Position numbers and translations under genes: made by a program
Notes under the pieces: generated by a model
Told to the model about the DNA's origin: nothing
The model's database searches: none
What the model saw: only the letters and a program-made list of their open reading frames with translations
Shown here: positions 8,755-24,660 of the stretch, one piece after another
Numbering within the stretch: the stretch's first letter is position 1
Layout of the letters: every line of letters starts with the position of its first letter
IMG/VR virus record: IMGVR_UViG_3300008266_001178
Span: 1 to 27,287 of that record
DNA from: a virus
DNA length: 27,287 nt
Reading direction: 5' to 3' (one strand)

Positions 8755-8769
8755 TTCCTATCAACCCAT

Positions 8770-8777
8770 TATCTTTG
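8770..8777 (+). promoter_or_regulatory. Bacteroidota-type -7 box upstream of the 8845 gene
   Basis: TATCTTTG matches the Bacteroidota sigma -7 consensus TAnnTTTG and lies 67 bases before the start of the virion gene at 8845. No clear TTTG element is seen at the expected -33 distance, so it could be weak or depend on a phage factor. The gene behind it has its own terminator, which supports a separate transcription unit. Confidence 0.5.
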
Positions 8778-8810
8778 CCCTATCGTGCGTTGTGGCCTGT
8801 CTGCCAATAA

Positions 8811-8840
8811 ATGACGAGATTGAAATCCTTTAATTTTTAA
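8811..8840 (+). CDS. Nine-codon leader ORF (MTRLKSFNF), doubtful
   Basis: A tiny ORF with ATG at 8811 ends at TAA 8838-8840, four bases before the start of the virion gene at 8845. It lies in the transcript predicted from the box at 8770. Ending so near the main start, it could couple translation. It may equally be chance, because short ORFs are common and the region just before the gene is simply A/T-rich, as is usual for Bacteroidota ribosome entry. Confidence 0.15.
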   Translation: MTRLKSFNF

Positions 8841-8844
8841 CAAA

Positions 8845-9423
8845 ATGGCTTATTTAGAATACGGCTGTTCCGCTTTGCCAGACCACGAACTCGTACTTTG
8901 TGGGGATTACAAGCGTGGCGGTATCTCTGCGATTGGTATTCTTGAGGAGGACGCATTTGGCTCTGGGGGAACTTTTGCAACGGACGCTGACTTCGGCGTT
9001 GCGGCAAAATACACCGCCGCTCTCGCTGCTGGAGACCTCAAAATTATCAAGAATGTTCGTGGAACGGTACCCGATGCCTCCCCCGTTGACGTTGACAACC
9101 CCGTTGGTTGCGGCCCTCAGAGCCTTTTAGCGGGCTTTGACTTTACCGCTACCTGGATGGATGCCAACACAACCGATGGAACCATTGCCTTTTATAGCGC
9201 ACTCAACAAGCGTGTAACGGGTTTGATTCTGTACCTGTGTGGTTCCAATGAGGTGATGTTCATCACCCAGCCCGTGAATTATGTGTGCCTGCCGGTTAAT
9301 GTCCCTGCTTCCAACAAGGAGCTTCAGATGTTCAACTGTACGGCCCGTGCTTCGCTCGGCCCAGACCAATTACCCAAGAAAATCACTGCGCCTTCCAACG
9401 CAGACGCTATCTTCGGAGCATAA
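8845..9423 (+). CDS. Abundant virion protein, candidate major tail protein
   Basis: The 192-residue protein has no recognised named domain. It starts with two cysteines in a short segment (YGCSALPDHELVLCGDY) and continues as a compact beta-rich protein rich in alanine, glycine and threonine, like tail tube or other repeated virion proteins. It has its own promoter-like box (8770) and is followed at once by a strong terminator (9444-9475), so it is a single-gene unit that can be expressed much more than its neighbours. An A-rich stretch (ACAAA) stands before the ATG. Of the genes in the window, it is the best candidate for the tail tube subunit, together with the 184-residue product at 21015. 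This assignment is inferential. Confidence 0.75.
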   Translation: MAYLEYGCSALPDHELVLCGDYKRGGISAIGILEEDAFGSGGTFATDADFGVAAKYTAALAAGDLKIIKNVRGTVPDASPVDVDNPVGCGPQSLLAGFDFTATWMDANTTDGTIAFYSALNKRVTGLILYLCGSNEVMFITQPVNYVCLPVNVPASNKELQMFNCTARASLGPDQLPKKITAPSNADAIFGA

Positions 9424-9487: not shown

Positions 9488-10435
9488 ATGAGTGAAAAAA
9501 CCACAGGGATAGTGATTATGGCTTTTGGAAAGTCAGCTTATCACGAAATGGCCTACAACTTCGCAATATCGGTGAAGGCATTTGATAGAGACCTCCCCAT
9601 TCAGTTGATATGCGACAAAAGGGATATGTTGATTCCCCACAATTATTGGGTCTTTGACATTATCACCATCATTGAGCAAGATGACTTGTATTCGGGCTAT
9701 GGTTTCAGCCCAGGCAGGGCCAAGACGAGGATGGACAAGTATATGGCCTTTGACAACAACCTATACTTTGACACGGATGGCGTTGCGCTCAAATCCTTGC
9801 AACCGCTGATTGATATGCTCCTTGCGTTGCCAGAGAGCGGATATTTCTATTCCCAGGTAACATCTTGGGATGACCCAAAGGGAGGAACGCCCAAGGGCAA
9901 CCTAAAAAGGGATGGAGCCGATTTCCCTGCGATGCAATGGGCTACCCTTGATACCATTTGGGAGTTCCACAAGCTTGACGATGATGCCGAGGTTGTGGCC
10001 ATAAACAGTTCGTTTATGTTCCTTCGCAAGGGCGAGAAGCTCACGGAGTTCTTTGAGCAAGTAAGGGACAACATTGACAATGGCATACCGATAGATAGGC
10101 TTAAAATGCCTTGGGGAGGCACTTACCCCGATGAACTTGCCTTCAACATCGCTTGCGCCCAATACAAGATTGACCCCTTTTGTGGCGTGAATCCCGTTTA
10201 CTTCCAATACCGAAACGCTTTATCGCCCAAGATTATTCCTTGGATGATGGAGAACTATTATGTCTTGGGACTATTTGGTGGCCCTGGGTTCTCCCACGAT
10301 TCTGCTTGGGAGCATTCTTGCGCCCTGCTTGGAGAGTATCATGCGAGATTCGGATTAACGCACCAATACAAGTGGCACAGCCTTGTAAGGCAAAAGCACG
10401 CAGGAAAGCAAAATGTGATGATAAGATGGAAATGA
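9488..10435 (+). CDS. Nucleotide-sugar glycosyltransferase (GT-A fold, GT8-like)
   Basis: This 315-residue protein probably moves a sugar from a nucleotide donor. The N-terminus (GIVIMAFGKSAYHEMA) resembles the start of GT-A enzymes. A basic segment (GRAKTRMDKYMAF, about residues 76-88) precedes YFDTDG, where D95-T96-D97 is the likely metal-binding DxD. The remainder (PWGGTYPDELAFNI and following) fits an acceptor region. The frame is open further upstream to 9281, but that part overlaps the previous gene and the terminator. The ATG at 9488 follows the promoter directly and gives the natural start. It overlaps the next gene as ATGA and opens a six-gene sugar cassette. Donor and acceptor are unknown. 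Confidence 0.8.
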   Translation: MSEKTTGIVIMAFGKSAYHEMAYNFAISVKAFDRDLPIQLICDKRDMLIPHNYWVFDIITIIEQDDLYSGYGFSPGRAKTRMDKYMAFDNNLYFDTDGVALKSLQPLIDMLLALPESGYFYSQVTSWDDPKGGTPKGNLKRDGADFPAMQWATLDTIWEFHKLDDDAEVVAINSSFMFLRKGEKLTEFFEQVRDNIDNGIPIDRLKMPWGGTYPDELAFNIACAQYKIDPFCGVNPVYFQYRNALSPKIIPWMMENYYVLGLFGGPGFSHDSAWEHSCALLGEYHARFGLTHQYKWHSLVRQKHAGKQNVMIRWK

Positions 10436-11097
10436 GCGGATTTATCTCGGTGATTACGACCTGCAAGGGCAGGCTTCATCATTTAAGACAGACATTGCCT
10501 GGATGGATGGCTCAAGAAGGAGGCAATTATGAGATTATAGTGGTTGACTATAATGACCCAAACGATTGCTTTTCCTATGTTGAATCCCTTTGCGACCCAA
10601 GGGTTAGAGCGGTAAGGGCCAACAATGATGACCCCTTTTTCAATTTAAGCAAAGCCCGGAACATAGGGGCTATGGCTATATCCGAAAAAACGGACGTGAT
10701 TTTGTTCGTGGATGCCGATACCATTATGACCAACAATGTCTTCATAAACTATCATAAAGGCAAAGTGCTGAATCCGGGCAATTTTCTTTGCGGATGGGCT
10801 AATGGCAACATGAATCTTGGGGCAGGGGCTTCTGGCAGTTGTATGGTTTGGAGGGATGACTTTTTCGCTGTGCGTGGATATAACGAGTTAGCAAATGGGT
10901 GGGGATATGAAGATGTTGAGTTTTACGAAAGGCTTGAGCGGATAGGCAGGCAACAAACAGCATTTCACAACGGCCTTGACTCTATTCAACACAGCGATGA
11001 AGAAAGGGTAATGTTTTATCGCAAAAAAAACATCCATGTGACCAGCAACGGCAATCTTTTGACAATGAAGAACAACTTTCAAAGCTCTATCGCATGA
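10432..11097 (+). CDS. Family 2-like glycosyltransferase with GWG-ED motif
   Basis: The 221-residue product has a GT-A fold: a start of the type ISVITTCKGR, the first nucleotide-binding acid near D39, DADT with D94-A95-D96 as the metal-binding DxD, and GWGYEDVEFYERL at residues 156-168. The last motif is typical of galactosyl- and N-acetylgalactosaminyltransferase C-terminal regions, with the ED pair as likely catalytic base. The frame is open upstream to 10180, but the ATG at 10432 overlaps the previous stop as ATGA, the rule in this operon, and places the first beta strand at the N-terminus. An ATG at 10426 is a close alternative. No membrane segment; it should act in the cytoplasm. Acceptor unknown. 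Confidence 0.88.
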   Translation: MSGFISVITTCKGRLHHLRQTLPGWMAQEGGNYEIIVVDYNDPNDCFSYVESLCDPRVRAVRANNDDPFFNLSKARNIGAMAISEKTDVILFVDADTIMTNNVFINYHKGKVLNPGNFLCGWANGNMNLGAGASGSCMVWRDDFFAVRGYNELANGWGYEDVEFYERLERIGRQQTAFHNGLDSIQHSDEERVMFYRKKNIHVTSNGNLLTMKNNFQSSIA

Positions 11098-11651
11098 TTC
11101 AGGTCATTAAGGCCAATGAGCATGGCGATTCAAATGTCTTTGAGGTATGTGGGATTCATGTGTATCATTCGCCATACATAGGCATAACTCGTGGCTATGG
11201 CGAGTTTATGGACTATTACAAGCCAGAGCCTTCTGCTGAATGGGTTGTGTATCAGCCTCACGATGTGGCTCTTAACTATTTTGATTTAAGGCGTGCCATA
11301 GATAATTCTCCCGGAAAGTTCTTTCAATTAAGCCTTTCGGATGATTCTTACGGCTCACACGAATTTCTTTTTAAGCGCAAACGGCAGGGATGGCATCGGG
11401 TTCCTTTCGTTGAGATTATGGTTCCTGTATTCAAGAGGGACTTTTATGATGTCGTGGCTCCCTATATGAAGGAGTCCAAGTCGGGATGGGGGCTTGATTA
11501 TCTATGGGCGCATTTGTATGGTGAGCAACCTTGGCTTTGTTGCGATTACGAAATGAGGCACAAAAACCCAATAACTTCGCATAAGTGGCGAATTGACGGT
11601 AAAACGCCTATGGATGAAATGGAATACATAACCAGAAAATACTTGCGATAA
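11094..11651 (+). CDS. DUF707-like putative glycosyltransferase
   Basis: The 185-residue protein carries FVEIMVPVFKR (residues 105-115) followed by SGWGLDYLW (130-138) and a short region with CCDYEMRHKNPI. This order resembles DUF707 proteins, a family thought to be GT-A-like transferases. An N-terminal YQPHDV segment, with histidine and aspartate, may be part of the donor site. It overlaps the previous gene by four bases (ATGA) and the next by one (TAATG), so it is made together with true glycosyltransferases, which supports a role in glycan building. Base composition is visibly more A/T-rich than the structural genes. The catalytic activity is inferred. Confidence 0.7.
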   Translation: MIQVIKANEHGDSNVFEVCGIHVYHSPYIGITRGYGEFMDYYKPEPSAEWVVYQPHDVALNYFDLRRAIDNSPGKFFQLSLSDDSYGSHEFLFKRKRQGWHRVPFVEIMVPVFKRDFYDVVAPYMKESKSGWGLDYLWAHLYGEQPWLCCDYEMRHKNPITSHKWRIDGKTPMDEMEYITRKYLR

Positions 11652-12217
11652 TGAGCGTTAAGAAAGGCATAACTTTTGTGATTCCATCCGTAAACAGGCC
11701 CACAATTCACCGGGCCATTGATTCTTTGATACGGCAAAGCAATCCTAATTGGGAATGCGTTATTGTGTATGATGGCGTTGATGGCCCTTCTTTTAACGAT
11801 GAAAGGGTTAGGTGCTTAAAGGTTGAGAAAACAGGCACAAGGGACGATGTTCACGGAATGGCTGGCCTTGTTCGCAATTTTGGCATAAAGGCCGTTGATA
11901 CGGAATGGGTTGGGTTTCTTGATGACGATGATAGCCTGGACGAGTCTTATGTTGATGTCTTGCTTAACAAGTACGAAGGGCATGATGCCGTTGTTTTTAG
12001 AATGAGATACATTGACGGGTCCGTTATACCAAGGGTGGAAGATTCTCGTATGTATTTCTCAAATGTCGGAATATCCTTTTGCTACAAAAGAAAGGACTTC
12101 CCGATTTTGTTTGACAGCAATAGGAATGGCGAGGACTTTGATATGGTAAACAGACTTCAATCCTTGTGTGAGCGATTTATAGTTGCTGAAGAGATATTAT
12201 ACAGGGTTAACCATTAA
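11651..12217 (+). CDS. Family 2 glycosyltransferase
   Basis: The 188-residue protein shows the short GT2 pattern: GITFVIPSVNRPTIHRAIDS at the N-terminus, WECVIVYDG with the nucleotide-binding aspartate at residue 41, and VGFLDDDDSLDESY with the metal-binding acids at residues 91-94. A later NGEDFDMVNRL is probably the catalytic-base region (ED). The start is ATG at 11651, one base inside the previous stop. The protein is shorter than usual for GT2 (about 220-300 residues) but ends after the core, and no membrane segment follows. The donor cannot be told from the sequence. Confidence 0.88.
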   Translation: MSVKKGITFVIPSVNRPTIHRAIDSLIRQSNPNWECVIVYDGVDGPSFNDERVRCLKVEKTGTRDDVHGMAGLVRNFGIKAVDTEWVGFLDDDDSLDESYVDVLLNKYEGHDAVVFRMRYIDGSVIPRVEDSRMYFSNVGISFCYKRKDFPILFDSNRNGEDFDMVNRLQSLCERFIVAEEILYRVNH

Positions 12218-12229
12218 ACAAAGCGAAAA

Positions 12230-13090
12230 GTGAGCATTAAGGTAAAGGCAATTTGTAATTGGACGGATTCAGCGTCCCTGTCTAAAATAATCATTCAGCA
12301 ATCTCTTTATAGCGAATCTGATGGCATTGAGTTTGTTGATGATGACTCATACGAATGGCTTTTTATTTTTAATAACAAAGTCAATGAGGAGATTCTCGTG
12401 CCGAAAGAGAGAGTCATAGGCTTCATCCAAGAACCGCCCATTTCATCGTTTTTTGACAAAGAGATTGGCAAATACTGCTCCGTTGTTTACACCTGCACGG
12501 AGCCTCACGCCTACAACATAGACGGCAATATCGTTGGTTTCCCTTGCGGGATGCTTTATCAGATGGAGGGCAATTTGACCGATTATCTGGACGGTCTTGA
12601 TAAGCAAAATAAGCGAAGAGTCATAAGCATGGTGACGAGCAATTTCTCCCACGGATTTTACTCGTTTAGACACAATATGGCAAAGGCACTTGCGACTTGC
12701 GGATGGGTTGATGTTTATGGGAGGGATTTGGATGTGCCTGGATGCAAGGGGAGTCTTGGCAACAAGGCCGATGGCTTGATTCCTTACAAGCTCTCGGTGT
12801 GTATGGAGAACAGCATTTGGGATGATTACATATCCGACAAGATTATTGACGCTGTTCTATGTAGAACCATCCCTATTTATGTGGGTGCGAGGAATATCCA
12901 CGAACATATCCCTTTCGCCATTCGCCTTGAATCTTATCGCAACGCATCCTTCGCAAAGGCTGAGATTGAACACATCGTATCTTCGGTGAATTACGACTCC
13001 CTTCTGCCCCAAATGAACGATTGGGTTCGTAAATATGCGAATGAATACACGATTTACTCAAAGATTAAACAAACCATCATAAATAGTTAG
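12230..13090 (+). CDS. GT10-type (fucosyltransferase-like) glycosyltransferase
   Basis: The 286-residue protein has the C-terminal hallmark of family GT10: YKLSVCMENS (residues 186-195), then DDYISDKIIDAV and TIPIYVGA (to about residue 220), which bind GDP-fucose or a similar donor in known members. The N-terminal half contains FIQEPP and VYTCTEP segments, as in GT-B acceptor domains. The start is GTG at 12230, preceded by AAAGCGAAAA; it lies 12 bases after the previous stop, one of the few non-overlapping joints of the cassette. GT10 enzymes make alpha-1,3 or alpha-1,4 fucosyl links, but some phage and bacterial relatives use other sugars, so substrate is open. Confidence 0.85.
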   Translation: MSIKVKAICNWTDSASLSKIIIQQSLYSESDGIEFVDDDSYEWLFIFNNKVNEEILVPKERVIGFIQEPPISSFFDKEIGKYCSVVYTCTEPHAYNIDGNIVGFPCGMLYQMEGNLTDYLDGLDKQNKRRVISMVTSNFSHGFYSFRHNMAKALATCGWVDVYGRDLDVPGCKGSLGNKADGLIPYKLSVCMENSIWDDYISDKIIDAVLCRTIPIYVGARNIHEHIPFAIRLESYRNASFAKAEIEHIVSSVNYDSLLPQMNDWVRKYANEYTIYSKIKQTIINS

Positions 13091-13092
13091 CA

Positions 13093-13677
13093 ATGTATCA
13101 CTCACAGGTAGGGCAGGACGAGTTCGTTGACAATTTTCTTGGCGGAAAGCGCAATGGCCGCTATTTGGATATAGGAAGCCACAATGGGGTTGACCTTTCA
13201 AATAGCTATTTCTTTGAGGTTCAAAGAGGTTGGACGGGCGTTTTGATTGAGCCTATGGAGGAGGAATACGCTAAATTGGTGGCCAATCGCAGCGACAAGA
13301 ATGACTTTTTTAATGTGGCGGTTTCCAATTACTTTGGCACGGCTCAATTCACGAAGATATTGGGGGGATATCACGGCCTGAATATGATTTCGGGTCTAAA
13401 GCAAAGCTTACACGAAAAGCATCTTGACAGGATTCACAGGGAAGCCAATGAGTCAAATGCCCAAGTCGTAGATGTCACCGTGTCTGTTAGAACGGTCCAG
13501 GACATATTGGACGAATGCGAACTCTATCAATTTGACTTTTGCTCCCTTGACACGGAGGGTTCAGAGTACGAGGTCGGCTATGAATCAAGGGAGAAGATTG
13601 AGTCTTTCTTGAGTAGGAAGGGCTATCGCTTCCACAGAAGCATTGGGCATGACGATGTTTACACCTTGATTCATTAA
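13093..13677 (+). CDS. FkbM-family SAM-dependent methyltransferase
   Basis: The 194-residue protein begins SQVGQDEFVDNFL and has the SAM-binding motif YLDIGSHNG at residues 24-32, the strand GVLIEPMEEEY ending in the acid expected to bind SAM ribose, and CSLDTEGSEYEV near residue 150, all typical of FkbM-type O-methyltransferases. It is last in the sugar cassette, two bases after the GT10 gene, so it probably methylates a hydroxyl of the glycan and may cap the chain. It is shorter than many family members but contains the whole core. No membrane segment. The gap after it (13678-13781) carries the next promoter. Confidence 0.88.
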   Translation: MYHSQVGQDEFVDNFLGGKRNGRYLDIGSHNGVDLSNSYFFEVQRGWTGVLIEPMEEEYAKLVANRSDKNDFFNVAVSNYFGTAQFTKILGGYHGLNMISGLKQSLHEKHLDRIHREANESNAQVVDVTVSVRTVQDILDECELYQFDFCSLDTEGSEYEVGYESREKIESFLSRKGYRFHRSIGHDDVYTLIH

Positions 13678-13781: not shown

Positions 13782-15626
13782 ATGACAACTGAACAGGTCA
13801 AACCCTTGTTAGACCACATCATTACCGAGTACAAGAAGTACGAGGTGAAGAAGAAGTCTGACAAATTCTACATCCCTGACTTCTACCCGACCTACCGGGC
13901 CTGCGTAGAAATGGAGATGAGGCTTCGTATTCACTCCGACTACGATGCTTTCCCGGAAAAGTTGTTCAAGGAGAAGGCTCCCAACGAGCTTCCCCACGAG
14001 TTCAACTATCGCAAGAACATCTACAAGCCTATCACCGTGCCTTACTTCCATAAGGCCGTGAACATTGCCGGGCGCGTTTGGAACCGGCAGAACTACGAGA
14101 TGCGCTTTGATGACGCTTCCGAGGAGCGTTATTTCACCGAGGACTACCCTCGTTTTGGTTCTTTGGAGAACTACTTTCAGCAGATTGTGAGCTTTATGAC
14201 CTTGACCGACCCCAACGCGGTCTTGGCGATTATGCCTGCCAACCTGCAATACTTTGAGGACGGCACATTCAACGACACCGTTGAAACCACCCCGGTGGCC
14301 CATTGCTTTCACTCCAAGCGCGTTTGGGCTTGGAAGGAGAACGAGTACGCCATCATTAAGGCCGACTACGGCTCGGAGGTGGAGAATGGCCGTACCAAAA
14401 CGGACGATGGCCTTGTGTTCTTCATCTTTGACAAGAACGAGATTCAGATAGCCAAGCAGGTGGGCAAGAAGGCCGACTACACCTTTGAGATTGAGCTTTA
14501 CTACAAGCACGATATGGGCAAGCTGCCCTGCACTCGTTTGGGCGGTATTTCGGTGCAGGAGCAAGGCGATTACTACTTCCAATCCTTCTACACCCCGGCT
14601 ATCCCGGCTCTTGACCAAGCCGTGTGCGATTTCAGCACCTTGCAGATGTCCAAGTACAGCCACGCCTTCTTGCAGAAGTGGGAGTATGTGGACGAGTGCG
14701 ACAGATGCAATGGTTCGGGGCAGACTGAGGAAGCATTGGGCTTTGAGGAGAAGGTGGCGATTGCTTGTTCTAACTGCGGTGGTTCTGGTACGAAGCGGAT
14801 GTTCGGGCCGATGTCGGTCTATCAAGTGCAGACCCCGAACCGGTTTACCACCGAGGTAGAGACGAAGGTGAACATCCCCCCTGCCGGGTTCATTGAGTTG
14901 GATCCGCAGATCCTTGAGTTCTTGAACAAGCAGGTCATTACCAACATTCAGATGGCCTTTGAGTTGTTGTCCATTGATGTAATGAACAACGAGAAGATTT
15001 CGGGCCGTGAGACCGCCACAGGTAAGGCGATTGACCGGGAGGAGCTGTATTCCTTTCTGCTCCGCTTTGCCAACACGGTCTTCCACGACTTTGAGTTCGC
15101 TATCAAGACGATTGGCGAGATGCGGTATGGCGCAGACTTTGCGATGCCTGCGATTCGCTATCCGCAGAACTTTGAGATGCGCACCGATGCCGAGTTGACT
15201 GCCGAGATTGAGAAGGCTCCGACCTTCAGCAAGGCGATGTTGGCACAGCAGTATTTGGACACCCGATTCCCCATTCAAGAGGAGAAATCAGCGATTATGA
15301 AGTTGGCGGTGCAGGCCGACCCCTTGTTCAACCTGGAAACGAAGGATGTCTTGGCATTGGTTTCTACCGGGCTTGTCCCCAAATGGAAGGCCATTCTGCA
15401 CTTTGAGTTGGAGTCGCTGATTAAGACTGCGATTGCCCAAAACGAGAACTTCTTTGAACTCACCCTGGAAGAGCAGAAGGATGCCCTTGCAACCCTTGCG
15501 AAGACGCTTGTTCCGGCTGAAGAAGCCCCCAGAACGATGACTCCGCAGAGCGTGATGAATGCTCGTACTGCCGTCCCTGCCCCTGCTGAGGACGATGATG
15601 ACGAGGAAGACGAGGACGAAACCTAA
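13782..15626 (+). CDS. Portal protein (putative) with DnaJ-like cysteine insertion
   Basis: The portal dodecamer forms the DNA gate of the capsid. This 614-residue protein has the size of portals, lies directly before a MuF-type gene, scaffold and capsid, and has the composition expected: N-terminal KPITVPYFHKAVNI, a middle clip or wing region, a long helical stretch near residues 385-460, and an acidic, probably disordered C-terminus (about residues 585-614). Two cysteine motifs, CDRCNGSG at residues 306-313 and CSNCGGSG at 329-336, look like half of a DnaJ zinc-finger domain and could bind one zinc. No ATPase or protease motif was seen. Portal identity rests mainly on size and neighbours. 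The opposite strand is also open for 489 codons, a shadow. Confidence 0.8.
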   Translation: MTTEQVKPLLDHIITEYKKYEVKKKSDKFYIPDFYPTYRACVEMEMRLRIHSDYDAFPEKLFKEKAPNELPHEFNYRKNIYKPITVPYFHKAVNIAGRVWNRQNYEMRFDDASEERYFTEDYPRFGSLENYFQQIVSFMTLTDPNAVLAIMPANLQYFEDGTFNDTVETTPVAHCFHSKRVWAWKENEYAIIKADYGSEVENGRTKTDDGLVFFIFDKNEIQIAKQVGKKADYTFEIELYYKHDMGKLPCTRLGGISVQEQGDYYFQSFYTPAIPALDQAVCDFSTLQMSKYSHAFLQKWEYVDECDRCNGSGQTEEALGFEEKVAIACSNCGGSGTKRMFGPMSVYQVQTPNRFTTEVETKVNIPPAGFIELDPQILEFLNKQVITNIQMAFELLSIDVMNNEKISGRETATGKAIDREELYSFLLRFANTVFHDFEFAIKTIGEMRYGADFAMPAIRYPQNFEMRTDAELTAEIEKAPTFSKAMLAQQYLDTRFPIQEEKSAIMKLAVQADPLFNLETKDVLALVSTGLVPKWKAILHFELESLIKTAIAQNENFFELTLEEQKDALATLAKTLVPAEEAPRTMTPQSVMNARTAVPAPAEDDDDEEDEDET

Positions 15627-16502: not shown

Positions 16503-16862
16503 ATGAATGAAAGAATCACAGGCAGAGTTGTTCCCGTGCTGAGAGCCGATGGCGAGCAAATCAAAGTCACCATTGATGTGGCAAGAAACACCGAGTTCTT
16601 GAAGAAGTACGGTATGCGCATTCTTGATGACAGCGCATTGACCACCACTCCAAGTTCGGTTCACCACGACATCGTTGAGCAGATGCCCAAACGCAGGCCG
16701 ATGCTTCGCCAGGAAGAACCCCAAGTCGTAGCCCCATTGACCACCTCCGAGATGATGGAGCAAACCCCAGAAGTCCCAGACGAGGAAGCGTTTGAAGAAG
16801 AGCCTCTGCCCCAAGAAGTACCAACCGAAGAAGCACCAACCACTAAAACCCGTAGAAAATGA
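16503..16862 (+). CDS. Small acidic-tailed head-module protein, unknown function
   Basis: The 119-residue protein is not recognised. Residues 1-42 form a compact, mixed region (RITGRVVPVLRADGEQIKV). Residues 43-110 are rich in proline, glutamate and threonine and probably disordered, ending in a basic TKTRRK tail. It stands first in the transcript from the promoter at 16441 and overlaps the scaffold gene by four bases (ATGA). Position between the minor head protein and the scaffold suggests a head assembly accessory or decoration protein, which is a guess. The ATG at 16503 is preceded by TTAAATCT and is the only sensible start. Confidence 0.7.
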   Translation: MNERITGRVVPVLRADGEQIKVTIDVARNTEFLKKYGMRILDDSALTTTPSSVHHDIVEQMPKRRPMLRQEEPQVVAPLTTSEMMEQTPEVPDEEAFEEEPLPQEVPTEEAPTTKTRRK

Positions 16863-17674
16863 GCGTAGATTCCAAAGAGATGGCTAAATGGCTGTTTGAC
16901 CAAGAGAAAGAGTTTGCATCCCTTGACGAGTTCAAGGAAGAACTTGCGAAGAAGTATGTGTCCCGTGAGGTTGCCGTTGACGATGAGGACATCCGCAATC
17001 GCGTTACCGGGAAGACCCTCGGCAGCCTTGAGACCAAGTTCAAGAGGTCTTTCAACTTGACCGAGGACGATGTGAAGGGCAAGAAACTCTCCGACCTGTT
17101 TGAGGTTGCGCAGCAGCGTATGACCGCCCAAATGGAGGAGTTGAAGGAGCAGGCCAAGAACACCGGGAAGGACGATGAGGCTTACAAGGCCCAGCTTGCT
17201 GAGTTGAAGAGGCAGAAGGGTGAGTACGAAACCTTGGCCGGTGAGTTGACGCAGAAGTTGGAGCAGAAGGAGGTTGAGTCGCAGAAGGCCATTGACAACT
17301 ACATCGTTAACCAAGAAGTGATGAAGATTAAGTCATCCCTTGCGTGGAGCGATTCGGTCAATCAGTTCGCAAGGAAGGGCTTTGACTTAGAATTGAACGA
17401 GCGTTATATCTTTGCGTTATCGGATGGGAAGTTGGTGGTGACGGATAAGAACGGAAGCCAAATCAAGAACGAGAAAGGCACGGGCTATTTGACACCTGAA
17501 GAGTTGGTTCGCACCGAGGCTGACAAGGCTCAAATGCTCAAAAAGGCAGGAGAAGCCGGGAAGCAAGGCAAAGAGCCGATTCGGACTTCAACCTCCGACA
17601 AAGAAGGCACTCGTGGAGAGCGGTTCTTGCACCCAAGGGCCGTGAAGCATAGAGAAGAATTAAACGCACGATGA
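16859..17674 (+). CDS. Capsid scaffolding protein (putative)
   Basis: The 271-residue protein is highly charged and helical. A long coiled coil runs from about residue 85 to 150 (glutamine- and glutamate-rich heptads), followed by a small globular domain (~150-215) and a basic, disordered C-terminus ending HPRAVKHREELNAR, a kind of tail that scaffold proteins use to bind the capsid lattice. It lies directly before the major capsid gene, the normal position of a scaffold, which guides shell assembly and leaves the prohead. No serine protease motif was seen, so the maturation protease is not fused here. The stop overlaps a small ATG ORF (ATGA at 17671). Confidence 0.85.
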   Translation: MSVDSKEMAKWLFDQEKEFASLDEFKEELAKKYVSREVAVDDEDIRNRVTGKTLGSLETKFKRSFNLTEDDVKGKKLSDLFEVAQQRMTAQMEELKEQAKNTGKDDEAYKAQLAELKRQKGEYETLAGELTQKLEQKEVESQKAIDNYIVNQEVMKIKSSLAWSDSVNQFARKGFDLELNERYIFALSDGKLVVTDKNGSQIKNEKGTGYLTPEELVRTEADKAQMLKKAGEAGKQGKEPIRTSTSDKEGTRGERFLHPRAVKHREELNAR

Positions 17675-17724
17675 TGTGTCGGGGGGACAATAAGCCCCAT
17701 AGTGCCTGGCTTGGCAAGAAATAG
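17671..17724 (+). CDS. Seventeen-codon coupled mini-ORF before the capsid gene (doubtful)
   Basis: ATG at 17671 overlaps the scaffold stop as ATGA, exactly as most real genes in this operon do. It is followed by a second ATG and runs 17 codons (MMCRGDNKPHSAWLGKK) to TAG 17722-17724. The peptide has a cysteine, an RGD tripeptide and a basic end. It lies in the region that also folds into the leader structure described at 17677-17730, so translation of the ORF would open that RNA. It could be a genuine tiny gene, a regulatory leader peptide, or chance. Confidence 0.35.
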   Translation: MMCRGDNKPHSAWLGKK

Positions 17725-17730
17725 CCGACA
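17677..17730 (+). promoter_or_regulatory. Predicted three-way-junction RNA in the capsid gene leader
   Basis: TGTCGG (17677-17682) pairs perfectly with CCGACA (17725-17730). Inside are two hairpins: GGGG (17683-17686) with CCCC (17695-17698) around an eight-base loop, and TGCC (17703-17706) with GGCA (17713-17716) around a six-base loop. Together they form a three-way junction 23 bases before the capsid ATG. A T-run (17735-17741) follows, so it could also act as a partial terminator. No known riboswitch class was recognised. Energies were not computed. Confidence 0.4.
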
Positions 17731-17753
17731 AATCCTTTTTTCATTCCAAAAAA

Positions 17754-18815
17754 ATGTCATACGCTTTTTCATCCTTCGTATCGTGTCCGAACATTCAGGA
17801 GCGGTTGGACGCAGGCTACTTCAATGCCGATCCAACGATGTTCCCCGGCCACATCAATACCCTTCGTGCGGTCACAAGCCCTATGAACGAATCGGGTATT
17901 CTTCAGAACCAAATTGACACCAAGAACGGTCATTACCGCCAGGTGGAAGTTGTGTATCAGCCCCGAATGACTGATTCCAACACCTCTACCTCTGCGGCCT
18001 TGAACTGTGCTGCGGGGCCAGAGTTTGGTGAAACCTCACGGGTTTACAACATTGACCCAAACACCGGTGCTTCTCGCAGGTGGTCTATCGGCTTGGACGA
18101 TTTGGCCCCTCGTTGTGAAAATGACGAGACCTACATCGCCCGGCAGTTGGCTATGCATATGCAAGCCATTAAGCGGTACATCAACCAAGAGGCGGTTACG
18201 TTCATTGCCACCAACAATGGCTTGTTCTCTTCCGACCCAGGTTCTACCGTTAACGTGGCTCGCACCTTGTTGACCACCAAGACCAAAAACACCTCCACAG
18301 GCGTTTTCTTGGATGACTTCTTGTCCGATGTGGTTTACCAATACCAACTCGCTGAGGCTTGGGATCGCCCCATCATCCTCGGTGGTGAACTCGTGCAGAA
18401 GTATATGACTGCGTTGAAGTCTCATTGCTGCGCAACGGTCAATGTTGACCTACAGCAAATGATGAACTCGGACGCTCAGTCCTACTTCTTCTTTGAGCCT
18501 CGCCTTGGTACTGCCCAAGGCAATCCCAACGGATTCTCGTTCCTCGCTCCAGGCGGTGTGCAGATGATTCGTTACAATGCCTTCCGTGGTGCTACCGGCA
18601 TCCGTGTCATTGACGATGAGTCCATCAAAAAGGGTACGATTTCTGACCCTGAAACCGGGCTTGAGTTTGACTACTATGCTCAGTTGGATTGTAACCAATG
18701 GAAGTTCTTTATGGGACTCTCCTACAAGTTCGTTACATTGCCTTCTGATGTGTTCTTCTTGAACGACCAGCTTCGCGGTGTCAACTACGTCTTTGAAGGC
18801 GTGGTGAGCAACTAA
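17754..18815 (+). CDS. Major capsid protein
   Basis: The 353-residue protein builds the icosahedral shell. Size, position after scaffold and before connector genes, and composition fit an HK97-fold capsid protein: an N-terminal arm (residues 1-60), a spine helix region (ENDETYIARQLAMHMQAIKR near 124-143), a peripheral domain with VYQYQLAEAWDRPIILGG, and a strand-rich end (EFDYYAQLDCNQWKFFMGLS). The start follows a run of seven A, the usual ribosome entry signal here, and the gene has an 79-base structured leader. A strong terminator follows the gene. The fold was inferred from sequence; individual HK97 landmarks were not proven. Confidence 0.88.
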   Translation: MSYAFSSFVSCPNIQERLDAGYFNADPTMFPGHINTLRAVTSPMNESGILQNQIDTKNGHYRQVEVVYQPRMTDSNTSTSAALNCAAGPEFGETSRVYNIDPNTGASRRWSIGLDDLAPRCENDETYIARQLAMHMQAIKRYINQEAVTFIATNNGLFSSDPGSTVNVARTLLTTKTKNTSTGVFLDDFLSDVVYQYQLAEAWDRPIILGGELVQKYMTALKSHCCATVNVDLQQMMNSDAQSYFFFEPRLGTAQGNPNGFSFLAPGGVQMIRYNAFRGATGIRVIDDESIKKGTISDPETGLEFDYYAQLDCNQWKFFMGLSYKFVTLPSDVFFLNDQLRGVNYVFEGVVSN

Positions 18816-18840
18816 TCTCTGATTGGGTTTAGTTTGGGAA

Positions 18841-18870
18841 GGGGGTGCGAAAGCATCCCCTTTTCTTTTT
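18841..18870 (+). terminator. Strong intrinsic terminator after the capsid gene
   Basis: GGGGGTGC (18841-18848) pairs with GCATCCCC (18853-18860), eight pairs with one G-T, closed by a GAAA tetraloop, followed by TTTTCTTTTT. It closes the head operon. The next promoter begins directly after it. Confidence 0.9.
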
Positions 18871-18874
18871 GTAC

Positions 18875-18902
18875 CTTGTGCCATTGATTTTTAGTAACTT
18901 TG
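18875..18902 (+). promoter_or_regulatory. Promoter of the neck operon
   Basis: CTTG at 18875-18878 lies 16 bases before TAACTTTG at 18895-18902; TTTG at 18868-18871 with 23 bases is an alternative upstream element. The ATG of the next gene is at 18907, only four bases after the box, so the transcript is predicted to be leaderless. Confidence 0.7.
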
Positions 18903-18906
18903 CCTT

Positions 18907-19911
18907 ATGAGTTGTTGGAATAATGTCATCGGCATACGCGGTCTTTGCGACCCAGGTACGGAGCCTATCAGCGGCCTCTACATCAATGATTTGACCGGCA
19001 TTAGCCTTGCCGACCTTGATTCGGGGGTTAATGAGGAGGACAAGACCGCCTACACCTTGATTCAGCGCAAGATTGACCAAGCGGCCAATATGCTGAAGGC
19101 CGAGTCTTTGGCCTACTTGCAGAGCCGTTGGAATTACACCACATCGGCTTTCAATGGCGATTTGGGCTTCTATTCGGAGTCCGTTCAGCCTCTCCCTGCC
19201 GCAGCGGTTTGGAGGGGCATTGGGATGCGTTATCGGCAGGTGGATTACATCTCCGTGACCATCTCTTCCATCAGCCTTCTGCTTCCTGCTACGGGCGTTG
19301 TCCCGGTTCGTGTGGTTGACTTGAGGACGGGTGCGACCTTGGACACTTTCAGCGTGAATGCGGTGGCTAATTCGGTGGCTCGTTTGGTGGTGAACAAGAC
19401 CTACCAATCCAACGGTCAGATGTTGAATTTGGCCGTGCTTTACAATGCCACATCGGTGGCCTCCTTCCAAACGGGTCTTTATCCGACCTATGGATGCGGT
19501 GGATGCGGTCGGGGCTATGGATGGACTGAGAATATGCTTGAGAGGGCCATTGAGATACCAACGAGTGCGCCTTTGTTGGATAGCAATATCAGCGGTGGGG
19601 CGTTCACGGGCGGTCTGAGTGTTCAGTACAATGTCGCTTGCAGTTTTGAGTCTTTGCTCTGCGCTCACATTTCACAACTCGGCTATCCATTGCTTTACAA
19701 GACCGGGATGCTATTGTTGAAGGAGATGGAGTTCTCCAAGAGGCTGAATGGGGTGATTGTGTTCAACCGGGATATGAATCAAGAGTTGGGCAATTACTAT
19801 CAGGCTCAATACGACCAATATATGCAACGCTACTTTGAGCAAGCGTCCTTGCCGGAGAATGGTTGCTTTTCTTGTAGGCAACGGGTTCGGCAAGCCTCCT
19901 TCATACCGTGA
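18907..19911 (+). CDS. Neck or connector-region virion protein, unknown family
   Basis: The 334-residue protein is not recognised. Residues ~45-75 are helical, residues ~80-190 are strand-rich, and a glycine-cysteine segment CGGCGRGYG sits near residues 196-204. The C-terminal part is helical, ends with CFSC near residue 320, and is rich in glutamine and tyrosine. The two CxxC pairs could bind zinc together. It is first in a separate transcript after the capsid terminator and overlaps the next gene (GTGA). Position after the capsid gene fits a head-tail connector or another head protein; this is inferred. ATG 18907 lies four bases after the promoter box. Confidence 0.75.
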   Translation: MSCWNNVIGIRGLCDPGTEPISGLYINDLTGISLADLDSGVNEEDKTAYTLIQRKIDQAANMLKAESLAYLQSRWNYTTSAFNGDLGFYSESVQPLPAAAVWRGIGMRYRQVDYISVTISSISLLLPATGVVPVRVVDLRTGATLDTFSVNAVANSVARLVVNKTYQSNGQMLNLAVLYNATSVASFQTGLYPTYGCGGCGRGYGWTENMLERAIEIPTSAPLLDSNISGGAFTGGLSVQYNVACSFESLLCAHISQLGYPLLYKTGMLLLKEMEFSKRLNGVIVFNRDMNQELGNYYQAQYDQYMQRYFEQASLPENGCFSCRQRVRQASFIP

Positions 19912-21569: not shown

Positions 21570-22090
21570 TGGCACTTGGCAGACTTTCCTCCTTCACCTT
21601 CGGGACTCGTTTCCTGACCCTTGTTTATGTCAACTCGCAGACCTTCTATGTGCCGTATGCCCACATTATTGCATACGAGTCCGACCCTACTTCCGGGGAC
21701 TTGACGATTGTCCTTTACACGCAGGGCCAGGTCAGCGAAACCTTGTCCGTGAAGAACACGGATTTGGTTGCTTTGGGCAGTAGTGCTGCTGCGTTCCTTG
21801 CTTCGTTGCAGGGCGTGATGACGAACCAACTCTTTTGGTTTGAGATATGGGCGAACTTTTTGGCCCGTGCTAAAGCGAATGGAGCGTTTGCTCCTGAGTT
21901 GGAGAGTTCTTGTGGTCGGGGCTTCCGTTATCGGATGTCTGGCCCACCGCTTGTCCCGACTGCTGACGAGGACTACGCTGACTTTTGGTACTTCAACCTT
22001 CGTTGCGATACTGACTTAGCGACTGCTAAGGAGGTCAGCGCATACAACTGCCTTCTTGCGAGATTTTCACCTTTGAACCCGAACACCTGA
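21569..22090 (+). CDS. Fibre-module protein sharing a domain with the 24691 gene
   Basis: The 173-residue protein is not recognised, but residues 1-85 align along their whole length with the 87-residue product at 24691. Both start MAL and share a pattern of LTL-Y, Q-F, a tyrosine before an isoleucine-alanine, ETLSV/ESMSV, TD and a final AFLASL/GFIATL. The C-terminal 85 residues, with FWFEIWANFLARA and cysteines near 111 and 150, have no counterpart. The domain pair brackets the two fibre genes. It may be a fibre chaperone or a small tail attachment domain; neither is shown. It overlaps both neighbours by one base. Confidence 0.65.
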   Translation: MALGRLSSFTFGTRFLTLVYVNSQTFYVPYAHIIAYESDPTSGDLTIVLYTQGQVSETLSVKNTDLVALGSSAAAFLASLQGVMTNQLFWFEIWANFLARAKANGAFAPELESSCGRGFRYRMSGPPLVPTADEDYADFWYFNLRCDTDLATAKEVSAYNCLLARFSPLNPNT

Positions 22091-22368
22091 TGTCCAATCC
22101 ATCTCTTCTTTGCGTTCCCTATCGCTTTAAGACAAGCAAGTTATACTCTCAAATCCCCGATTCGGGTTTGGGTGATTTTGTCGTTACTCGTTCTGCGAGC
22201 AACTCTGCTACGAGGGTCAATGCTGCGGGTCTTATTGAGACCGTTGCAGACAATGTGCCTCGTTTGGATTATCCTTTGGGAGGCATTACGGCAGGGTGTC
22301 CTGCGTTGCTCGTTGAGCCGAGTGCGCAGAACACCTGCTTGCAAAGTCAAACTTTCCAAAATTGGGCG
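22090..22368 (+). repeat. Fibre N-terminal repeat block (partner 23356-23637)
   Basis: The first about 93 codons of the two fibre genes encode clearly related sequence, sharing SLL-PY, LYSQIP-SG-GDF, GLIETV-DNVPRLDYPLGG and CPALLVEPSA-N. It is a diverged direct repeat of about 280 bases at a distance of about 1.27 kb, with higher G+C than the middle of each gene. It could support recombination between the two genes. Confidence 0.8.
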
Positions 22369-23352
22369 TTTACAAACGCAAGTGCAAGTTCGGGCAACGC
22401 AGCCATATCGCCAAGCAACACTCAAACCGCTGGGCTTTTTATACCTAACTCTGGCACAACAGGCCGAGGCGAAGTGGCTTGTGGAACTCTAAGCAATGCA
22501 ACCACTTATTCGTTTAGTTGCTTCATTAAGACCCCAACAAACTCACTCACATCCGTTTGGCTTTACATTTCGGACGGAGGCACTGGAACGGGGGCTAATC
22601 GTTGGGGCGTTGAAATCAATTTGTCTAATTTTACCTTAACGGATTACATTGTCGGAAACGGCTCTGTAACTTCCAAGGCGGTTGAGAATTACGGCAACGG
22701 ATGGTATCGGATTCGTGTTACGGGTCAAGTAACAAGTGCAATAAGTGGTTCATCCGTTGCGGTCGTTCGTAAGGTAAACGCTGGAGCAGACACCAATGGA
22801 ATCAACGGGGTTCTCGTATGGGGCGCACAACTTGAAGCAAGCTCCATAGCCACCTCTTACATCCCCACAACCACCGCCCCCATAACCCGTGGAGCAGAGG
22901 CCGTAAGCAAGACGGGCGTGAGCAGTTTGATTGGGCAGACGGAGGGGACGATTTATCTTGAGGTTGAACAAGACCCTTTAAATCGGGACATTTTTTCGCT
23001 TAACACAGGGACAGGAAATTCAATAATTTTTTACAAAAACAGTTCTAACATCGTTAATGCTCGTCTTTACGCAAATAGTTCAACGATTTTTACTATAGCC
23101 AATGCCGTTGCAACTAACGGGTTTGTAAAAATTGCACTTGCCTATAAAGCGGGAGATTCAGCGATGGTTATTAATGCAGGTACAGCGCAAACATCTGCAA
23201 GTAGTTTCATATTTTCTTCAGCATTAAGTTTGGTTAGCCTTACACCGAGTTGGTTTACGAATGCAGGATTCACAAAAATCCGTGCCGTGGCCCTCTACCC
23301 CACCCGCCTGCCCAATACCGGCCCTCTCTCCCTCCAATCTCTCACGCAATAA
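22090..23352 (+). CDS. Tail fibre / adhesin 1
   Basis: The 420-residue protein shows a phage adhesin layout. Residues 1-93 form a conserved anchor (VPRLDYPLGG, CPALLVEPSAQN). The next region has the common phage carbohydrate-binding pattern VENYGNGWYRIRVTG (about 198-212) and WGAQLEASSIATSYIPTTTA (244-263). After LIGQTEGTIYLEV comes a lectin-like, laminin-G-type sandwich (~285-400), and a short conserved end (TRLPNTGPLSL). The next gene is a paralogue with the same order. The central segments are much more A/T-rich than the ends. It probably binds a host surface glycan. It starts one base inside the previous stop (TGATG). Confidence 0.85.
   Translation: MSNPSLLCVPYRFKTSKLYSQIPDSGLGDFVVTRSASNSATRVNAAGLIETVADNVPRLDYPLGGITAGCPALLVEPSAQNTCLQSQTFQNWAFTNASASSGNAAISPSNTQTAGLFIPNSGTTGRGEVACGTLSNATTYSFSCFIKTPTNSLTSVWLYISDGGTGTGANRWGVEINLSNFTLTDYIVGNGSVTSKAVENYGNGWYRIRVTGQVTSAISGSSVAVVRKVNAGADTNGINGVLVWGAQLEASSIATSYIPTTTAPITRGAEAVSKTGVSSLIGQTEGTIYLEVEQDPLNRDIFSLNTGTGNSIIFYKNSSNIVNARLYANSSTIFTIANAVATNGFVKIALAYKAGDSAMVINAGTAQTSASSFIFSSALSLVSLTPSWFTNAGFTKIRAVALYPTRLPNTGPLSLQSLTQ
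22681..22968 (+). repeat. Fibre central repeat block (partner 23977-24249)
   Basis: Both fibre genes carry VENYGNGWYRI, WGAQ-E-SS--TSYIPTTTA, TR and LIGQTEGT-YLE in the same order with similar DNA. Between this block and the N-terminal block, and again after it, the two genes differ strongly. This alternation of conserved and variable parts marks them as mosaic. Confidence 0.75.
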
Positions 23353-23355
23353 CCT

Positions 23356-24660
23356 ATGTCCACTCCTTCTCTCTTAAACATCCCTTACCTCTACAAGGCA
23401 GGGACGCTTTATTCGCAGATACCCGAAAGCGGAGCGGGTGATTTCACCGTACAACGCACCACGACCGTTGCGAATCGCTCCACGAGGATTAACAAGGACG
23501 GGTTGATTGAGACCGTGTTGGACAATGTGCCTCGCCTTGACTATCCGTTGGGTGGTGCGGTGAATGGCTGCCCTGCGTTGCTTGTGGAGCCGAGTGCGAG
23601 AAATGATTGCTTCCAAAGTCAAGGATTTAGCACCTCCCCTTGGATTGCAGCGGGTGTGTCAGCCGTAAGCACCGCCTTAACCAATAGCCCCGATGGTACG
23701 CAAAATGCTTTTGATGTAACGATAAGCAATACGGGTTTCAGTAATTTACGGCAAACCATTGCTTGCGCCAACAACACCACATACACGATTTCTTGTTTTT
23801 ACAAAAACAAGGCTTTGACTGCGGGGCAGACATTTGAGATGCGTTACACAAATGAAAACATTGCGCCCAACAACTTAAACGCCATAGCCACCATTGACCT
23901 TGCGGCAGGGACTGCAAGTTACAATTTGACAGGAACTGCGGGGACGGGTTTTTCGGGAACTGCAACGGGTCGTGTTGAAAACTACGGCAATGGATGGTAT
24001 AGGATTTCAATGACCTTTACCACGGGTTCTGCGGGGGCTAATGCAAGTGGTATTTTTAGGCCCGTAGTTGGCATAAGTATTGCAAGGAATTTTTTTGCGT
24101 GGGGAGCTCAAATGGAAACAAGTTCCGTCCCCACCTCCTACATCCCCACCACCACCGCGGCAGTCACGCGGAGTGGGGATTTAATCTCAGATACAACTGC
24201 GACTGCGTTGATAGGGCAGACCGAGGGGACGGTTTATTTGGAGATGCAGGCAGATGCGGCAGGGACGGGGCAGAACTTTTTATATGTTGGCAATAATGCG
24301 TCCGATTCCATTGTGATTGGAAAGTCAGGCGTAAATTGTTTCTTTGAATTTAGAGTAAACGGAACACCTTTAATAAGTCAAAATGTCGCTCTTAGCGGAA
24401 CGGTCATAAAAGGGGCAATAGCCTATGCAAACGGCAATTATGCAGCCTATGCGAACGGCAATCTTTTGGCTTCGGGGACAACTTCAAGAACTCCCGCAAA
24501 CGCTTTGACTGCAATCGCTTTTTCAAATTTCATTAACTTACCAACAATAAACGCTGCCTCTGCAATTATGCGAGTCCGTGCCTTTGAACTCCACCCCAAC
24601 CGCATCCCCAACACGGCAGCACCCGGAGTTCTCTCCCTCGCCACTCTCACCGCACCATAA
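23356..24660 (+). CDS. Tail fibre / adhesin 2, paralogue of adhesin 1
   Basis: The 434-residue protein has the same order as the preceding gene: anchor (residues 1-93), VENYGNGWYRISM near 208-220, WGAQMETSSVPTSYIPTTTA from 249, LIGQTEGTVYLEMQ, a lectin-like sandwich, and the end HPNRIPNTAAPGVLSL. Between these blocks the two proteins differ. The central DNA again falls in G+C. Having two intact fibres with different binding parts may widen host range or allow a hetero-oligomeric fibre. The start is ATG 23356, three bases after the previous stop. No enzymatic motif was noticed, and no reverse transcriptase or template repeat that would suggest programmed diversification is present. Confidence 0.85.
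   Translation: MSTPSLLNIPYLYKAGTLYSQIPESGAGDFTVQRTTTVANRSTRINKDGLIETVLDNVPRLDYPLGGAVNGCPALLVEPSARNDCFQSQGFSTSPWIAAGVSAVSTALTNSPDGTQNAFDVTISNTGFSNLRQTIACANNTTYTISCFYKNKALTAGQTFEMRYTNENIAPNNLNAIATIDLAAGTASYNLTGTAGTGFSGTATGRVENYGNGWYRISMTFTTGSAGANASGIFRPVVGISIARNFFAWGAQMETSSVPTSYIPTTTAAVTRSGDLISDTTATALIGQTEGTVYLEMQADAAGTGQNFLYVGNNASDSIVIGKSGVNCFFEFRVNGTPLISQNVALSGTVIKGAIAYANGNYAAYANGNLLASGTTSRTPANALTAIAFSNFINLPTINAASAIMRVRAFELHPNRIPNTAAPGVLSLATLTAP

Follow-up and report, generated by a model that had tools for sequence, protein, structure and literature searches.

How much head and tail protein a phage makes is commonly attributed to promoters and to the strength of start sites. Mu-gpT-DE and similar candidate cis-regulatory RNAs in Rfam lie upstream of phage structural genes, and gp32 acts on its own mRNA in phage T4. 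The leader of T4 gene 32 opens with a 5'-terminal pseudoknot of about 28 nucleotides, after which comes an A/U-rich start region without structure (PMC535899, PMC3014915). Here we analyze a window of 27,287 nucleotides (positions 1-27,287 of IMG/VR virus record IMGVR_UViG_3300008266_001178), in which leaders of related design precede the genes for the presumed major capsid and major tail proteins. We consider it probable, while well short of certain, that this design is a cis-acting, post-transcriptional control element common to the two mRNAs, with pairing between the messages as a suggested component. A literature search found no report of such a leader, and it reads as an unreported element of one phage group, probably associated with Bacteroidota.

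Results

The capsid locus and its relatives

The gap of interest separates a presumed scaffold gene (16859..17674, + strand, as are the tail gene, promoter box and leader elements described below), which is named by position only and has its TGA stop at 17672-17674, from a presumed major capsid gene (17754..18815, + strand). The capsid gene follows a portal-like gene (phrog_7376) and the scaffold gene and has no family match; the structure model of its product is unusable (pLDDT 31), and both capsid and scaffold identities are presumed from gene order beside the portal-like protein. Relatives of the capsid gene were found at 73 loci among viral contigs, with two more recovered via alignment; searches of annotated phages and of the bacterial genome collection found none. 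The gap could be compared across about 70 related phage contigs from IMG/VR, which carry 29 distinct leaders, with capsid identity down to 59%; the leaders fall into groups represented by the window, L042, L036/L058, L049/L057, L064, and L125.

Several other features of the window were noted in passing. Residues 304-337 (14691-14792) of the portal-like protein (13782-15626) correspond to a DnaJ-type CXXCXGXG zinc-ribbon (Pfam PF00684, below cut-off). Between the tail and head modules (9491-13677) lie genes whose translations give the impression of glycosyltransferases and a methyltransferase, and two genes in the region 22090-24660 (22090-23352 and 23356-24660) are apparent tandem duplicates with the common segments PRLDYPLGG..CPALLVEPSA and IPTTTA. 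The region 3' of the capsid gene (18840-18907) contains a terminator-like hairpin, GGGGGTGCGAAAGCATCCCC, with a T-run; 3' of this hairpin, a few bases before the next ATG, is a TAACTTTG box that would yield a nearly leaderless mRNA.

Tandem pseudoknots in the capsid leader

The conserved feature of the gap, across the approximately 70 contigs, is a pair of tandem H-type pseudoknots; conservation reaches 5' to about 17663, and a sister feature is present at 8782-8815. When the leaders are read side by side, the pattern UGUC-loop-GACA-(A-rich)-strand emerges. Pseudoknot A (17675..17698) is composed of P1, pairing UGUC (17677-17680) with GACA (17686-17689), and P2, pairing GGGG of the loop (within 17681-17685) with CCCC (17695-17698), with AUAAG as L3. 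In the leader alignment, 97.3% of cells are paired and five of the eight pairs have two-sided changes; 19 cells show such changes compared with 5.9 in shuffles, pairing collapses when the strand is slid by any step, and a permutation test gives 0/20000. The strand tracks the loop through GGGG/CCCC, GAGG/CCUC, GGAG/CUCC, GGGA/UCCC, GAUG/CAUC, and UGGCA paired with UGCUA or UGCCA.

Pseudoknot B (17703..17726) has the same unit design as pseudoknot A and the tail copy described below (UGCC-loop-GGCA-strand), with P1 formed by UGCC (17703-17706) and GGCA (17713-17716), P2 by GGCU (17708-17711) and AGCC (17723-17726), and AGAAAU as L3. Its P2 partners change together by inspection (GGCU/AGCC, GGUUA/UAACC in L064, and GAAG/CUUC); it is not significant alone (permutation 1163/20000, with few lineages), nor does the whole-leader alignment register it. 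Comparison among relatives gives strong support to pseudoknot A and the tail copy and moderate support to pseudoknot B, and the predicted leader structure as a whole is well supported. The fixed pattern GTGTC..GACA..GTGCC returned one chance match in viral contigs. In every leader and lineage checked, 3-20 nt separate the beginning of the scaffold stop from pseudoknot A, and both the stop codon and its distance vary between leaders. Downstream of the pseudoknots, the start region of the capsid gene (17727..17753) is A/U-rich, a composition kept in relatives, and has no Shine-Dalgarno sequence; Bacteroidota hosts do not rely on such sites.

These structures differ from those proposed in a preliminary description of the window, which had folded the gap into a three-way junction followed by a T-run and had set this fold in competition with a mini-ORF coupled to the scaffold stop. 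The pieces of the junction are present in the window: UGUCGG (17677-17682) is perfectly complementary to CCGACA (17725-17730), and this outer stem encloses GGGG/CCCC and UGCC/GGCA hairpins, with the T-run 3' of them. Among relatives, however, the outer stem is broken or missing: 65.5% of its cells are paired, compared with a mean of 65.6% in shuffles, and it shows one two-sided change and no covariation. The single-sequence fold of the gap is unexceptional relative to dinucleotide shuffles (z -0.33; 70/200 shuffles at least as stable). The inner pairings do exist, as parts of the two H-type pseudoknots. The mini-ORF likewise exists in the window, where its 17 codons (ATGATG...) overlap the scaffold TGA, but in other leaders it has 17, 18, or 26 codons, only 7 in L007/L012/L019/L042, and no ATG at this place in L036, L049, L057, L058, L064, L066, and L125. 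A contest between its translation and RNA folding is therefore not supported by the relatives, and the proposed attenuation at the T-run fares no better, given that the run varies between leaders (e.g. TCTTTATTT or AACTTTGATTTTT). Unpaired substitutions in stems and loss of the open mini-ORF among relatives had been named in advance as the signs of chance; both are observed, for the outer stem and the mini-ORF, whereas a different structure passes covariation. The broader reading of the gap as a structured RNA, here conserved, with a probable role in controlling capsid expression, is supported. Moreover, the statement that no known riboswitch matches agrees with our Rfam comparison, in which no family, riboswitches included, reached its gathering score in the window and matches near the gap were at chance level only.

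A twin pseudoknot at the predicted 5' end of the tail mRNA

The unit occurs one further time, 5' of the gene at 8845..9423. We presume that this gene encodes the major tail (tube) protein because the structure model of its product (pLDDT 67.5) best matches tail-tube proteins, the top PDB match being the phage T1 tail tube (E 1.9e-3, prob 0.99) with a TM of only 0.36. In contig IMGVR_UViG_3300011116_000838 (L118/L226/L235), an extra tail-tube paralog directly precedes the main tail gene; it has a TATCTTT box of its own and no pseudoknot leader.

The gap at 8755-8844 contains one unit of the capsid-leader design, UGUGGCCUGUCUGCCAAUAAAUGAC. This pseudoknot (8791..8815) has P1 formed by UGGC (8793-8796) and GCCA (8803-8806), and P2 by GUC (8799-8801) and GAC (8813-8815); 91.8% of cells are paired, 16 cells show two-sided changes compared with 4.9 in shuffles, and the permutation test gives 6/20000. 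The loop strand covaries in relatives as GUC/GAC, CCC/GGG, UUGAC/GUCAA, UCCGA/UCGGA, GAACU/AGUUC, and GAGG/CCUC. Both leaders can be described by the unit UG-UGNC-loop-GN'CA-A-rich-loop strand, in which the third pair of P1 differs between copies (U-A, C-G, or G-C) in front of two unrelated genes.

The tail gene also has a promoter -7 box, TATCTTTG (TAnnTTTG; 8770..8777), which is kept in relatives. In Flavobacterium, TAnnTTTG spans positions -12 to -5 (PMC9723704), and this spacing places the predicted start of the tail mRNA at or near 8782, the first base of AUCGUGCG. No TAnnTTTG box was found in the capsid gap. Judged from promoter type only, the host of this phage group is probably a member of the Bacteroidota.

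Comparison indicates that the unit is confined, in the genomes examined, to the capsid and tail leaders. A descriptor of the unit that allowed A-rich third loops only, and which misses some true copies such as both of those in G009, recovered these leaders and three strays from ten fetched genome sequences. Where one contig carries two copies of the tail gene, the leader is kept on the main copy and absent from the paralog. In addition, among the at least 238 matches listed in a search of viral and bacterial collections with the tail element, all nine that had both promoter and pseudoknot stem were tail-gene homologs from the same phage group.

Complementary elements 5' of the pseudoknots

The capsid leader begins with a short element, AACGCACGAU (17663..17672), that overlaps the first base of the scaffold stop, has the core ACGA, and is conserved in all leaders, with an AACGA variant in the L064 group. 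It is complementary to AUCGUGCGUU (8782..8791), the element at the predicted 5' end of the tail mRNA, whose core is invariant while the spacer on its promoter side varies. In 31/31 tabulated phage pairs, the elements that directly adjoin the capsid and tail pseudoknots on the 5' side are complementary over 7-11 nt. The complementarity is seen in all five lineages holding both genes, with matching double changes: capsid and tail elements read AACGCACGAU and AUCGUGCGUU in the window, CGCACGACA and UGUCGUGCG in L049, CACGACA and UGUCGUG in L036, AACGACACGC and GCGUGUCGUU in L064, and GCACGACA and UGUCGUGC in L125. The spacing from element to pseudoknot is 3-5 nt, and that from promoter to element is 4, 5, or 8 nt.

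Out of 120 permutations, cognate pairing falls within the top 4 when scored by length and the top 2 when scored by energy, and it outdoes every one of 20000 shuffles (0/20000). All element pairs contain ACGA/UCGU, so that much of the match is common by descent and the independent evidence amounts to about two columns with two-sided change. A match of such length also arises by chance somewhere in a shuffled genome; as we read these sequences, the weight of the match is that it returns at one and the same position in each lineage. For L064, some of the match may fall upstream of the transcript start, and the elements are not always predicted to be unpaired by folding that cannot model pseudoknots. 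Other partners for the capsid element were considered and set aside. Pairing with ATCGTG inside the capsid gene (17780) is lost in other lineages, and pairing with 16S rRNA was dropped by reasoning because it does not track the variants. A third site, CGCACGAY, located about 10-12 kb downstream of the capsid gene in several genomes, is coding-like, lacks pseudoknot context, and is not present in all lineages.

Discussion

The model that we favor is one in which the capsid gap encodes a cis-acting RNA made up of a short 5' element, two compact tandem pseudoknots, and an A/U-rich start region, with the tail mRNA bearing a similar leader having one pseudoknot at its predicted 5' end. On the basis of their position, the unit that they have in common, and the analogy with the T4 gene 32 operator, we infer that these leaders act after transcription, affecting how the mRNAs for the most abundant structural proteins are translated, how stable they are, or both. 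Base-pairing over 7-11 bp might, moreover, join the 5' end of the tail mRNA to the capsid leader where the scaffold and capsid genes meet, linking both messages so that head and tail production would be adjusted together. The evidence for mRNA-mRNA pairing is suggestive, and sequence alone cannot separate it from a DNA-binding site common to the two loci. We propose only tentatively, and at somewhat less than even odds, that the 5' end of the tail-tube mRNA pairs with the scaffold-capsid junction to form a complex of two messages, flanked by matching pseudoknots, and that this complex keeps head and tail synthesis in balance. Pairing is placed slightly ahead of protein binding and of protection from decay because it is the only one of the three to account for the complementary elements.

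The first of these alternatives, in which the pseudoknots of the two leaders are bound by a phage protein that represses or activates translation, as gp32 does on its own T4 mRNA, and the 5' elements form part of its binding site, is rather unlikely yet deserves attention: the T4 gene 32 leader has the same layout, and the conserved P1 letters (UGNC/GNCA) and A-rich L3 resemble recognition or triplex constraints. It leaves unexplained, however, why the 5' elements are complementary rather than alike. A single-strand-binding protein of family PF00436 is also absent from nine records, although these are fragments and the point is weak because gp32 belongs to another family. Failing to account for the complementary elements in the same way, a role in which the pseudoknots protect two 5' ends against decay, that of the tail mRNA and that of a processed capsid mRNA, seems doubtful to us. 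Such a role would suit the predicted 5'-terminal location of the tail copy and two genes that should both need abundant mRNA; the capsid gap lacks a TAnnTTTG box, so that a capsid mRNA could conceivably be processed out of the scaffold transcript.

An inverted site for one DNA-binding regulator, lying in opposite orientations at the tail start and the scaffold-capsid junction and leaving only the pseudoknots to act as RNA, would give the same sequence pattern, matched changes included. We regard this as improbable because the spacing to the promoter varies while that to the pseudoknot is tighter, the capsid gap has no promoter-like box, and the genomes searched have no consistent third site. 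Stimulation of readthrough or frameshifting by the pseudoknot directly after the scaffold stop can be dismissed almost entirely: a stop-to-pseudoknot spacing of 3-20 nt is seen in viral recoding signals, but here the stop codon and its distance vary, the frames past the stop shift between leaders with loop lengths that differ by single bases and have no conserved open frame, and the tail copy follows a promoter rather than an ORF end. We give just as little credence to the three-way junction with T-run attenuator and competing mini-ORF, every piece of which exists in the window, since its outer stem and mini-ORF are not conserved, its fold is no better than shuffles, and the standard that its own description set already refutes it.

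If the favored model is correct, a pseudoknot leader and complementary elements would tie two main structural mRNAs together at the RNA level, and these probable Bacteroidota phages would offer a concrete, testable RNA element. Among known systems, the tandem pseudoknot repeats of type III antitoxin RNA, which is encoded beside a ToxN-like toxin gene, bear a loose resemblance to the capsid leader, although the scanned neighbors here look structural. Mu-gpT-DE type RNAs are likewise conserved structured RNAs placed before a phage head gene, but no Rfam model matches here and the architecture appears to differ. In bacterial regulation by mRNA-mRNA base-pairing, a non-coding part of one message is complementary to the leader of another, as is proposed for the phage leaders; here, by contrast, both partners of the putative pairing would be phage structural mRNAs, with a predicted 5' terminus on one side and related pseudoknots next to both. 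The T4/RB69 gene 32 operator is similar in having an H-type pseudoknot in a phage leader upstream of the start site, supported here by covariation, and an A/U-rich start region 3' of the pseudoknot, evident here from sequence. It differs in that the leaders described here comprise a tandem pair of units on one mRNA plus a single unit on the other, serve structural genes rather than a single-strand-binding protein, and carry complementary 5' elements.
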